Source: Armatimonadota bacterium (GTDB lineage Bacteria; Armatimonadota; Fimbriimonadia; Fimbriimonadales; Fimbriimonadaceae). From it: a stretch of 64,000 nucleotides of DNA. The notes below the pieces were generated by a model that saw only the letters and a list, made by a program, of their open reading frames with translations, was not told the DNA's origin and searched no databases. The DNA lies in assembly GCA_018268355.1 (NCBI GenBank), contig JAFDWR010000001.1, positions 153,961 through 217,960 of the forward strand, given 5' to 3'. This document shows positions 58,638 to 63,616 of the stretch, piece by piece (the stretch's first letter is position 1; each line of letters opens with the position of its first letter). The position numbers were made by a program, and so were the translations under genes.

Positions 58638-60779
58638 ATGAAACGAATCTGCGCACGGGCCATTCGGTCGGCCATACAAGTGTTGACCATCGTCATGCTC
58701 TTCGTTGGAGGAGCCAGCTGTGGTGGCGGAGGCGCCGCTGAACTTCCGCTGCCACCCTTCGTGCCCGGCAGCGTCACTGCTCTGGAGTATCAGGAGGTCT
58801 TTGACGGGGCAGGGGACTACCTCAAGTCCGTTCTCTATGACGCGGATGCCGCCCAGAAGATGGTCTTGAAGATGAAGACCTACTCTCAGGTCGTTTTCGC
58901 TGAGGTCACCCCGACGGGCGACGTGATTGCCTTTTTCAAGGATGGACGGCACGTCAGCGTCCTCTTGAACGAGAAGCCACCGCGCCCCGGTACACGTCCC
59001 CAGCCGCAATCGGTGGCGAAGGCTCCATCAGGTGGCCCCAAGAACCTGGTGACGGGCAAGAAGGCATACATGTTCAATTGCATGGATCCCGGGTGGACGG
59101 ATGCGACGCCGCAGCTCGCGACCATGATGCGCGACAAGGGCTATGACGTCACCGAGGGCGCGGGAACGGTTGAGGACTTCAGAAACATCCGCGACGCCGC
59201 CTTCGTTTTCGTCCACGCCCACGGCCGAATCTCGCGCGACCGAAACAGCAAGAAAACGTTTTGGTACCTGACCTCGTCGGACGCGAGTGGGATGGCCAAC
59301 GACCCCTACACGAGCTACTGGCAAGAGGGATCGATCGGGGTCGCCTTGGTTCCCGTCTATGGTGCGCCGACCACTGCAAAGCCGGTCTTGAAGTACGAAG
59401 TCAGCACCAAGTTCTTTTCATCTTCCGGCGTCACGTTCGTTCCGGGCGCCTTCTGGCTTTCCCAGTCGTGCTCGTCGTTCGACGATTCGGCGGTCAACGC
59501 CTTCACCGCGTTGCCGAACCTGTCGATCTATGGAGGGTGGACGCTGCCGTGTGACGCCGACGAGACGACGCCGACGATGCTCTTCATGTTCGACCGGCTC
59601 CTGGGTAAGAACGAGGCTGCGCCAGTACCTGCCGAACCCCAGCCGCCCACCACGTTTGGCGAGTTGCCCTCGCTTCTGGCGACGACGATCCGGCCCGGCG
59701 GCACCCTGCCTCACGACTCGTCCATCACACCCGATGGCAGGTCCTATCTAAGGTTCAAAACCGGAACCGGACCTGCGATCAAGACGATCATCCCTTCGAT
59801 CGAATCGGCCACCGTTGACGTCGAGAAGAACCAGCTCAAGATCACCGGCAACTTCGGGACCGAACTCGGCGCGGTAACGCTCAACGGCTCCAACCTCAAC
59901 GTGATCTCGCACACCGAAAGCCTGATCATCTGCGACAAGCCGTCGCAGGATGAAGGCACGCTGTTCCTTCGCTCCATGGGCGCACCGGGGGCGAGCGGTC
60001 TGCTGTTCAGCAACTCCTACGCCTACAAGGCGTTTGGACTGGAACTCACGCCCAAGACCGCCGACGTTGACCCGAATCAGACGCGCAGCTTCACGGTTGC
60101 GGTCACCCAAGGCACGCTGCCGAGCGGTGCGAAGTATGAGTGGACCGTCCTCGGCGATGGCAAAGTGAACAACCAAACAACGGTGACGACCACCACGACA
60201 ACCGTCACTTATCGGGCACCGAATACCGACGCGAGCGACACCCTGCGGGTCCGCGCGGTGACCTCGACGGGAACGGTGTTAGCAGAAACGACCGCGCTCA
60301 TCTCTGTGGGCAACACACCGCGGATTCAGTTCACCCTCTCGGGCAACTGGGACCCCGCCAAGACTCCGGCGAACGGTACTTACACCTACACCGATGGCGG
60401 CGGAAATCGCATGTTCCCCGAACCGGGCACTGAGGTGCTGTTCTTCAGCCACAACATTGGTGCAACTGATCAGACCATTGGTGCTCTGGTGACCGTCGTG
60501 CTCACACCGGGCCAGGTCGTGGTGCCGGCAACCTACTCGAAGTTTGTCCCTGGACAAGCTCCCGCGCCAGGCCAGTTTCAGTTCACGCTCGCCACGAACC
60601 AATCCAACCCCGACGACTCCGAGTCAAGGCAGTTTGCGGTGGGAACGACAGGCTCGCTGACGATCACATCGGTGACGAGCCTCTCGGGTAACCGAAAGCG
60701 CGCCAAGTACACGTTCACGATCTCCAATGGCATCGGCGGCACGTGTACGGGCTCGGGAACCCAAATCTGGCAGGAATAG
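58638..60779 (+). CDS. lipoprotein with caspase/gingipain-like (clan CD) His-Cys pair and Ig-like repeats
   Basis: 713 residues. The leader ends in a lipobox with Cys28 (GGASCGGGG). A predicted Rossmann-like core (about 135-320) holds two hydrophobic strands ending in the clan CD signature residues: FVFVHAHG (His195-Gly196) and FWLSQSCSS (Cys278), followed by NLSIYGGWTLP. C-terminal of it, about 400-465 resembles an IPT/TIG domain (ESATVDVEKNQLKITGNFG), and two beta-sandwich Ig-like modules follow. Clan CD covers caspases, gingipains, legumains and clostripain. I infer a surface-anchored cysteine peptidase or a pseudo-peptidase; homology is not proven. Confidence 0.7.
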   Translation: MKRICARAIRSAIQVLTIVMLFVGGASCGGGGAAELPLPPFVPGSVTALEYQEVFDGAGDYLKSVLYDADAAQKMVLKMKTYSQVVFAEVTPTGDVIAFFKDGRHVSVLLNEKPPRPGTRPQPQSVAKAPSGGPKNLVTGKKAYMFNCMDPGWTDATPQLATMMRDKGYDVTEGAGTVEDFRNIRDAAFVFVHAHGRISRDRNSKKTFWYLTSSDASGMANDPYTSYWQEGSIGVALVPVYGAPTTAKPVLKYEVSTKFFSSSGVTFVPGAFWLSQSCSSFDDSAVNAFTALPNLSIYGGWTLPCDADETTPTMLFMFDRLLGKNEAAPVPAEPQPPTTFGELPSLLATTIRPGGTLPHDSSITPDGRSYLRFKTGTGPAIKTIIPSIESATVDVEKNQLKITGNFGTELGAVTLNGSNLNVISHTESLIICDKPSQDEGTLFLRSMGAPGASGLLFSNSYAYKAFGLELTPKTADVDPNQTRSFTVAVTQGTLPSGAKYEWTVLGDGKVNNQTTVTTTTTTVTYRAPNTDASDTLRVRAVTSTGTVLAETTALISVGNTPRIQFTLSGNWDPAKTPANGTYTYTDGGGNRMFPEPGTEVLFFSHNIGATDQTIGALVTVVLTPGQVVVPATYSKFVPGQAPAPGQFQFTLATNQSNPDDSESRQFAVGTTGSLTITSVTSLSGNRKRAKYTFTISNGIGGTCTGSGTQIWQE

Positions 60780-60905: not shown

Positions 60906-62183
60906 ATGCGTTTATACTTGCGCACCTTTGCCGCGCTCGCGGTGCTCTCGACGTTTGCTACTGTTCAGGCCCAAATTCCCGCGCTTTCGAGTCGATCGGG
61001 CGCAGCCTACACGCTGTACTTGAACTTCGGTGGCTTTAGCTACACGGGTAACTGGAGCAGCGGTACCCCTGGCGTCACGCCGGCTTATTCCGGCACGACG
61101 GCCCAGATTCGCGAAGCGTGGGCACGCGTCGCGGAGAAGTACGTTTCGCTCAACGTGAACGTGACCACCGTAGACCCCGCCGTGGCGGCGGGTCAAGCGG
61201 CCACGGACGCCCAGCGGCAATCCTATTACGACAGCCAAGCGCGCATGATGCACACGGTCATCGGCGGTACCGGTGGCTGGTCCGGCGGCGGCGGCGTCTC
61301 GTTCTTGAACGTCATTAGCACGGCCCAAACCAACGGACGACATACCAACTGGGTGTTCGCGAACCAAGCTCCCGGAGCTCTCCAATTCGTCGCCGATGCG
61401 ACCTCGCACGAGAATGGACACGCCTTTGGTCTCAACCACCAGGGTGACTGGAACGTTGCGGGTCAGTCTAACGCCGAGTACAGCAGCAACTTTGATAGTG
61501 CGGCGATGGCACCGATCATGGGCGTCACCTATAACTCGCCGACCGACCCCCGACGAGGCCTCTGGCGACGCGGTCGAATCAACTCGAGCAACACGGTCCA
61601 GAACGACTTCTCGGTCTTCCTCGGAAATTCGGGCGTTCAGCTCGTGGATTCGGGCATCGGCCACACGTTTGCAACCGCGACCCAGCTCGGCCTGATCGGC
61701 ACCACGGTGGACCCCAACCTCGCAAAGGGCTGGCTCAACCCCGCGAGTGCAACGACGCCGAACCCCACCGGTGAGGCCAACTACACCAAGGACTACTTCA
61801 AGTTCACGGTCGGCCAAGCGGGCACGACCACGCTGACGCTCAACTCGGGCGGCCAGTGGCTTGCAACGGGACAATCGGCTCCTGGTCGCACGTTCCGCGG
61901 CAAGTTCAACATCCTGAACTCGAGCCAAGCCATCGTCGGTACCTCGACCGAAGCGAGCGACACCCTTTCGGCGTCGTTCACGGGTTCGCTCGGCCTCGGC
62001 AACTACGTCATCGAAGTGCTCAACTTTGGTGGCATGACCTCTACGATCGACACCAGCGCCGAGTACTACACCTCGGGTAGCTACTTCTTCACCGGCGTGG
62101 TTCCGGTTCCGGAGCCCGCGAGTATGGTTGCGCTCGGTCTTGGCGCGATCGCCCTCGTTCGCCGCCGACGAAAGCAAAGCTAA
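60906..62183 (+). CDS. PEP-CTERM-anchored metzincin-type metalloprotease
   Basis: 425 residues from the ATG at 60906 (GAGGAAGG upstream). Signal peptide MRLYLRTFAALAVLSTFATVQAQ. The zinc motif SHENGHAFGLNHQGD gives His168, Glu169, His172 and His178 (HExxHxxGxxH), and a Met-turn candidate Met205 lies in APIMGV: metzincin type. A beta-rich pre-peptidase-C-like domain (about 255-395; TKDYFKFTVGQAGTTTLTLN) follows, and a PEP-CTERM tail (PVPEPASMVALGLGAIAL plus RRRR) anchors it for an exosortase, which is not in this window. Confidence 0.9.
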   Translation: MRLYLRTFAALAVLSTFATVQAQIPALSSRSGAAYTLYLNFGGFSYTGNWSSGTPGVTPAYSGTTAQIREAWARVAEKYVSLNVNVTTVDPAVAAGQAATDAQRQSYYDSQARMMHTVIGGTGGWSGGGGVSFLNVISTAQTNGRHTNWVFANQAPGALQFVADATSHENGHAFGLNHQGDWNVAGQSNAEYSSNFDSAAMAPIMGVTYNSPTDPRRGLWRRGRINSSNTVQNDFSVFLGNSGVQLVDSGIGHTFATATQLGLIGTTVDPNLAKGWLNPASATTPNPTGEANYTKDYFKFTVGQAGTTTLTLNSGGQWLATGQSAPGRTFRGKFNILNSSQAIVGTSTEASDTLSASFTGSLGLGNYVIEVLNFGGMTSTIDTSAEYYTSGSYFFTGVVPVPEPASMVALGLGAIALVRRRRKQS

Positions 62184-63187: not shown

Positions 63188-63616
63188 TTAGCCCACCTTC
63201 ATCTTCATTTCCGTGCGCTTCATGCCGCACTTCGGGCACTTGCCGCCCTTCGTGGCGGTGGTTTTGCACTTCTCGCAGGCGTAGTAGGTCGCCATCTTTT
63301 GGCAGTCCATGCCGCACTTCGAGCACTTGCCGGGTTCCTTCATGGAGGTCTTGCAGTGGTCGCATTCGTAGGTGATGCGGGCCTTCTGAGCCTTTAGGTC
63401 CATCTGGCAGGTCGGGCACTTGCCCTTCTTGTCCATCGCCATCTTGCAATGCTCGCAGACGTAAACCTTGGTCGACTTGCTCGCCTTGCCGGCGGCCTTG
63501 TTTTCATTGCCAGACTTCGGCGGCTTGGGTTTGCTGGTTTGGGCGTGGCTGATCGGCGCGAAAACGGCGGTCACCATGAGGACAAGAACCAAGAGGATGG
63601 TTTGTTTCAGTTTCAT
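63188..63616 (-). CDS. exported protein with three HMBD-like zinc ribbons
   Basis: 142 residues. Signal peptide LLVLVLMVTAVFAPISHAQ, a Lys/Pro-rich linker, then three tandem CxxC...CxxC modules: YVCEHCKMAMDKKGKCPTCQ, YECDHCKTSMKEPGKCSKCG and YACEKCKTTATKGGKCPKCG. The pattern and the trailing GM resemble the heavy-metal-binding domain found in CusB/CopA-type metal efflux proteins, but here it is a stand-alone, tripled, exported protein. It may bind Zn, Cu or other soft metals in the periplasm (inference). Confidence 0.8.
   Translation of the reverse strand: MKLKQTILLVLVLMVTAVFAPISHAQTSKPKPPKSGNENKAAGKASKSTKVYVCEHCKMAMDKKGKCPTCQMDLKAQKARITYECDHCKTSMKEPGKCSKCGMDCQKMATYYACEKCKTTATKGGKCPKCGMKRTEMKMKVG

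Follow-up and report, generated by a model that had tools for sequence, protein, structure and literature searches.

A predicted surface lipoprotein of Armatimonadota is probably the founding member of an undescribed family of clan CD cysteine peptidases

Enzymes of clan CD underlie cell death, virulence, and the segregation of chromosomes, and what is known of the bacterial ones comes mostly from a few Pfam families. Among them, the gingipains (family C25) work outside the cell and carry Ig-like domains at their C-terminus, and the clan also includes the legumain and GPI8 ligases as well as the C25-type sortase PorU. The strands of the clan CD sheet have the order 2-1-3-4-5-6. In clan CD, the catalytic His ends strand 3 and the catalytic Cys ends strand 4 of the central sheet; further hallmarks are a Gly that adjoins the catalytic His and an aromatic residue on loop L5, which follows strand 5, and caspases also have a small beta section that lies between strand 3 and the helix after it (PMC4357240).

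In the current study, we analyzed a window of 64,000 nucleotides from an Armatimonadota bacterium, in which a gene on the plus strand (58638..60779) encodes a predicted lipoprotein of 713 aa that belongs to an unnamed clan CD-like family and to no Pfam or NCBIfam family. The gene starts with ATG, the ends of the ORF match positions 58638 and 60779 exactly, and the opposite strand, read in register, contains internal stops; the genome carrying it is 2.7 Mb in size. The protein begins with a type II signal peptide that ends in the lipidation residue Cys28 (residues 1-28, 58638..58721, plus strand), and a glycine run follows this Cys. Its lipobox, GAS-C, is slightly atypical in having Gly at position -3, and the Cys28 column holds a Cys in 38 of 41 homologues, mostly within classical L/V-A-G-C boxes. 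With a signal peptide and a lipobox Cys, the protein is by sequence a lipoprotein with predicted lipidation, as a preliminary description of the ORF had stated, and we anticipate that it is probably located at the cell surface.

That description had recognized no known family, and this holds for Pfam, NCBIfam, and the PDB sequences. More specifically, the best that Pfam returned for the 713-aa protein was PKD_5 (E 0.33), NCBIfam gave no match, and searches of the PDB sequences with the single sequence and with a profile found no peptidase. When 35 homologues were scanned singly against Pfam, a clan CD family was never matched, and the catalytic region of the homologues from outside the phylum was likewise without a match in Pfam and NCBIfam. 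A literature search returned no paper on clan CD in Armatimonadota or on the classification of prokaryotic clan CD members.

Relatives of the protein are nonetheless numerous. A first search with the 713-aa protein among relatives gave 13 other matches, and a 14-row alignment, run against 291 Armatimonadota genomes, matched over the catalytic region in ~38 genomes, with 1-4 copies in each. Across Armatimonadota, we found ~40 homologues; the number of copies per genome ranges from 0 to 4, and many members are present in a single copy. Using a 10-row alignment as the query, we also scanned 84,980 named species and found relatives in Bacteroidota (Parachryseolinea silvisoli and Xanthocytophaga flavus), Ignavibacteria, and Chloroflexota (Thermoflexales). 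The His and Cys dyad is present in the homologues from all three of these groups, and the Ignavibacteria homologue, a frame-shifted record, still has the HG, C, and GW blocks. Since the scan of named species reaches fairly similar members only, the true spread of the family may be wider. Homologues in two genomes, G176 (L060:7900-10035) and G023 (L039, G023:C119), are split by a stop or a change of frame and are possibly decaying genes or assembly errors.

The clan CD-like catalytic domain spans residues 141-350 (59058..59687, plus strand) according to an AlphaFold2 model (pLDDT 90) and Foldseek, and a further strand at residues 367-375 may belong to it. The preliminary description had singled out the motifs HAHG (His195) and SQSC (Cys278) as the ends of hydrophobic strands, and both can be seen in the sequence and in the strands of the model: His195 lies within VFVHAHG, Cys278 lies within FWLSQSC, and each terminates a hydrophobic strand (residues 187-193 and 267-276, respectively). 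It had also named conservation of the two residues in orthologues as a check. In an alignment of 14 sequences, Cys28, P114, His195, Cys278, Gly300, Trp301, and P334 are invariant, and in a set of 41 sequences, 39 retain His195 and 39 retain Cys278. In an alignment of 44 sequences that includes other phyla and whose members are often only ~20% identical, Cys278 and His195 are the top two conserved columns of residues 41-385 (42 of 44 each). Given that the two residues had been named from a single sequence before any alignment, their conservation represents a blind test that was passed, and the sequences indicate that the HAHG/SQSC motif is not a chance match.

These residues, and those around them, map to the plus strand as follows. 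His195-Gly196, the predicted catalytic His with its adjoining Gly at the end of strand 3, is encoded at 59220..59225, and Gly196 is found in 40 of the 44 sequences, the exceptions carrying Ala or Ser. The predicted nucleophile, Cys278, ends strand 4 (59469..59471). Gly300-Trp301 (59535..59540), each residue of which is kept in 40 of the 44 sequences, ends the predicted strand 295-301 and supplies the predicted aromatic residue of the substrate-binding loop L5; the residues downstream of Trp301 are not conserved.

Only two of the 44 sequences lack the dyad (L062:6737-8863 and L063:6326-8515). They have lost both residues together, with Leu in place of His (HG changed to LG) and Met in place of Cys, and their genomes also hold an intact paralogue (L066 and L067). 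The two are sister genes that form one short-branched clade on the tree, which is consistent with a single loss of the dyad, and judging by their sequences, they are natural pseudoenzymes of the family. If the dyad is functional, one would expect just this: the His and Cys disappear jointly, and an intact paralogue is kept. Natural dyad-less paralogues of this kind recall the pseudo-orthocaspases, which carry Tyr and Ser at the two dyad sites (PMC6426788), as opposed to the Leu and Met observed here.

The AlphaFold2 model of residues 41-352, which was built from 35 sequences, had a mean pLDDT of 90 and a pTM of 0.88. It consists of an N-terminal helix-helix-beta unit and a disordered linker, followed by strand 1 (142-147), a helix, strand 2 (170-174), a helix, and strand 3 (187-193), which leads to His195; next come hairpin strands (196-215), an insertion hairpin (233-256), a helix, and strand 4 (267-276), which leads to Cys278; and finally, a helix (283-290), strand 5 (295-301) with Trp301, and a helix (307-321). 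A full-length model has nearly the same strand and helix numbers, with residues 120-136 disordered. The predicted placement of His195 after strand 3 and of Cys278 after strand 4 is the clan CD order of secondary structure, and with the predicted strand ends of the His and Cys, Gly196, and Trp301 as the L5 aromatic, the lipoprotein displays these three hallmarks of the clan. In addition, the model has a small beta section after strand 3 and ahead of the helix that follows, as in caspases. What is characteristic of the family is the beta-hairpin inserted between strands 3 and 4 (residues 233-256, 59334..59405, plus strand), which is apparent in the models and accounts for the long spacing between the His and Cys: 72-103 residues (median 83.5), compared with medians of 47 in CHAT, 33 in C25, and 53 in C14.

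For CHAT, C25, C14, C11, and flavodoxin, we prepared profiles from sequences of this phylum and compared them with the family using hhalign. None of the comparisons was significant, with probabilities of about 0.5-5% (C14, 4.7%; CHAT, 2.3%; C25, 1.4%). Low scores are also obtained when the known clan CD families are compared among themselves (0.3-9%, except for 45% between CHAT and C25), and the one informative feature of the comparison is the register in which the catalytic blocks align. Within these weakly scoring alignments, HG falls on HG and Cys on Cys for CHAT, C25, and C14, and the GA..GW stretch also falls on the GA stretch of CHAT and C25, while the C11 and flavodoxin profiles show no register of the catalytic blocks.

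The known families compare with the lipoprotein as follows. CHAT (PF12770, including Csx29/TPR-CHAT and separase C50) resembles it in the His-Gly after strand 3, the Cys after strand 4, the GA..(x)..W stretch in register after strand 5, and the Foldseek matches 8gu6_D and 5mz6; however, PF12770 is unmatched in 35 members at E <= 1, the median spacing is 47 rather than 83.5, and CHAT proteins are cytosolic TPR proteins, whereas this one is a predicted exported lipoprotein with Ig modules. The gingipains (C25, PF01364) share the extracellular location predicted here, the Ig-like C-terminal domains, and the register of the HG, C, and GA blocks, but PF01364 is unmatched, the spacing is 30-42 in C25 versus 72-103 here, and the gingipains take the T9SS route, in contrast to the predicted lipid anchor of our protein. 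The caspases and orthocaspases (C14, PF00656) have the HG and C blocks in register, but PF00656 is unmatched, the median spacing is again shorter (53), and although strand 5 ends in Trp here, the loop that follows is not conserved as the caspase SWR. Three C14 genes occur in the same genome, and the two types therefore coexist. The clostripains (C11, PF03415) are secreted bacterial clan CD peptidases, one gene for which is found in this genome, but PF03415 is unmatched and the catalytic blocks have no correspondence in the profile alignment. The sequence evidence therefore suggests a family that is clan CD-like, yet none of CHAT, C25, C14, and C11. The preliminary description had called the core caspase/gingipain-like; by our data, clan CD in general describes it better than caspase or gingipain in particular.

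Based on the sequences and the models, the 713-aa lipoprotein is probably the first known member of a family of clan CD cysteine peptidases not described before. We infer, and consider reasonably likely, that residues 141-350 of this exported lipoprotein constitute an active clan CD cysteine endopeptidase. In such an enzyme, His195 at the end of strand 3 would activate the thiol of Cys278 at the end of strand 4, which would then attack the peptide bond of the substrate. Stabilization of the intermediate would fall to Gly196 together with the main chain around Cys278, and Trp301, where loop 5 begins, would steer the substrate into S1. Through the lipid on Cys28, the protein would be tethered to the cell envelope, and its Ig-like modules may act as a spacer or binder at the surface. 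What would be new here is the family, the kind of enzyme (clan CD) being already known. If so, a further clan CD family would exist outside Pfam and NCBIfam among the surface lipoproteins of poorly studied phyla and of named Bacteroidota species, and bacteria may have an added route for placing caspase-type proteolysis outside the cell. For the source genome, a "hypothetical lipoprotein" becomes a testable candidate enzyme, whose residues are predicted with the precision that mutagenesis requires.

Rather than being a general endopeptidase, the protein, with the same fold and an operative His-Cys dyad, may instead transfer or ligate as a surface transpeptidase or a sortase-like enzyme, or it may mature other envelope proteins as a processing enzyme with a single target. 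Legumain, GPI8, and PorU are clan CD precedents for such an activity, and the single copy per genome of many members fits a dedicated task better than nutrition. A further precedent is Csx29, which cuts one partner once (PMC10028731). Moreover, in both Bacteroidota members, the gene directly after the homologue encodes another lipoprotein, which has a CarboxypepD_reg-like domain and is a possible conserved partner there. Beside the Armatimonadota members, however, neither a conserved partner nor a recognizable sorting signal was found, and the copy number varies among genomes, so that we regard this explanation as unlikely.

The preliminary description had also proposed a clan CD fold; the predicted order of secondary structure agrees with it, and clan CD proteins are among the Foldseek matches, although a flavodoxin ranks first. 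Against the PDB, Foldseek returned no match below E 0.001 (best E, 5.4e-3), and the TM-scores normalized by the query were ~0.3. The clan CD matches were 8gu6_D, from the Cas7-11-Csx29 complex with the CHAT protease Csx29 (prob 0.97); 7x8a_D, which displays the same pattern (prob 0.97) and which we take to be the same Csx29 system; separase 5mz6; metacaspase 7qp1; and the RTX cysteine protease domain 3eeb. Since a parallel core is common to flavodoxin and caspase sheets, the Foldseek list alone cannot decide between the two. The top PDB sequence-profile matches are also flavodoxins, and Ig-rich lipoproteins are often adhesins; both points would suit a surface adhesin in which this region is a structural module of flavodoxin-like or Rossmann-like type with no enzymatic function, its His and Cys being structural or binding metal. 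It is the conserved residues that decide against flavodoxin, because the sequence-profile match (E 0.11) spans strand 1 to strand 3 only and misses them. In addition, the His and Cys head the conservation ranking and are lost together, and HG, C, and the L5 aromatic jointly fit clan CD. We therefore hold the adhesin module to be very improbable.

Outside the catalytic core, all further parts are likewise encoded on the plus strand. Residues 45-112 (58770..58973) form a family-specific helix-helix-beta domain in the AlphaFold2 model, with D102 and G103 conserved, which is a candidate prodomain. It is joined to the catalytic domain by a Pro-rich flexible linker (residues 113-140, 58974..59057), in which residues 120-136 have a pLDDT below 50. 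The second half of the protein is rich in Ser/Thr and in beta strands. It comprises a predicted IPT/TIG-like Ig domain (residues 386-463, 59793..60026), in which the P386 column is invariant; a second Ig/PKD-like beta-sandwich (residues 465-558, 60030..60311), to which the weak PKD_5 match, the model, and Foldseek point; and a C-terminal all-beta region (residues 565-713, 60330..60776) seen in the full-length model. With E <= 1 as the limit, 11 of the 35 homologues matched Pfam TIG/IPT (PF01833), the best at 2.6e-5, and the Pfam scan did not match it in the window protein itself. A Foldseek search with the full-length model matched the tandem Ig-fold proteins SbsB, NCAM, and cadherins, with Ig modules dominating the list, in agreement with the Ig-like modules proposed at the outset.

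Given that clan CD enzymes are often zymogens or allosterically controlled, as exemplified by Csx29 (PMC10028731), the N-terminal domain and flexible linker are a natural candidate for control. In the endopeptidase proposed here, they would be a likely control element, and a cut in the disordered linker would separate the catalytic and Ig portion from both the anchor and the N-terminal domain. The N-terminal domain also occurs alone, without the catalytic part, as a separate 119-aa lipoprotein encoded at another place in this genome (E 2.2e-22). A more specific proposal is that these proteins are surface clan CD peptidases of several phyla with an inhibitory N-terminal prodomain, autocleavage in the linker, and a stand-alone copy that inhibits in trans, which we view as quite unlikely. 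If this proposal were true, linker autocleavage would release the catalytic and Ig part, and the N-terminal domain would stay lipid-anchored. The stand-alone lipoprotein gene lies outside the window, on the minus strand (L087:4301-4666, i.e., G000:C1 at about 266300-266665), and its product is possibly an inhibitor in trans or a remnant. The gene downstream of it has a weak PA-domain match.

Another possibility is a caspase homologue for regulation or signal relay. Such a protein would stay inactive until a ligand, bound by the Ig or N-terminal domain, rearranges the active site, and it would function mainly in stress or cell-death-like responses. Zymogens and allosteric enzymes are common among clan CD proteases (Csx29, PMC10028731), the N-terminal domain is conserved and stands alone in the same genome, and a divergently transcribed Trans_reg_C-type regulator adjoins the homologue in three relatives. 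However, the window locus and most relatives lack this regulator, no sensory domain was recognized, and the possibility seems extremely doubtful to us. The three regulator genes are L049:10231-11658, L050:3879-5300, and L051:11440-12861, and a relative of this regulator is convergent in L048.

The gene that follows the lipoprotein gene in our window is one for a metzincin-like metalloprotease with a PEP-CTERM tail (60906..62183, plus strand). It encodes HENGHAFGLNH, an HExxHxxGxxH motif of the metzincin type, and its PEP-CTERM tail scores above the Pfam cut-off (30.2 vs 20.7 bits), which confirms the PEP-CTERM metzincin reported next to the lipoprotein; an exosortase gene is present in the genome. 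Reprolysin_3 falls just below its Pfam cut-off in this protein (22.1 vs 22.4 bits), and the start is probably ATG 60906, not GTG 60852. The two had also been presented as a pair of surface proteases, but the pairing is an adjacency at this locus only; the metzincin was absent beside the homologues within the flanking regions read. Full-length relatives of the metzincin occur in 4 of 60 other genomes, and the two of these four that also carry the lipoprotein family (G006 and G034) have the two genes on different contigs. With so few relatives, none of which was seen beside a lipoprotein homologue, a conserved two-protease cassette was dropped from consideration. The other window neighbours do not recur beside homologues in the regions read, except for one distant match of the small gene at 63188-63616. 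Among the Bacteroidota members, the two CarboxypepD_reg-like lipoproteins (L236:7971-8744 and L237:8047-9111) are ~27% identical to each other.
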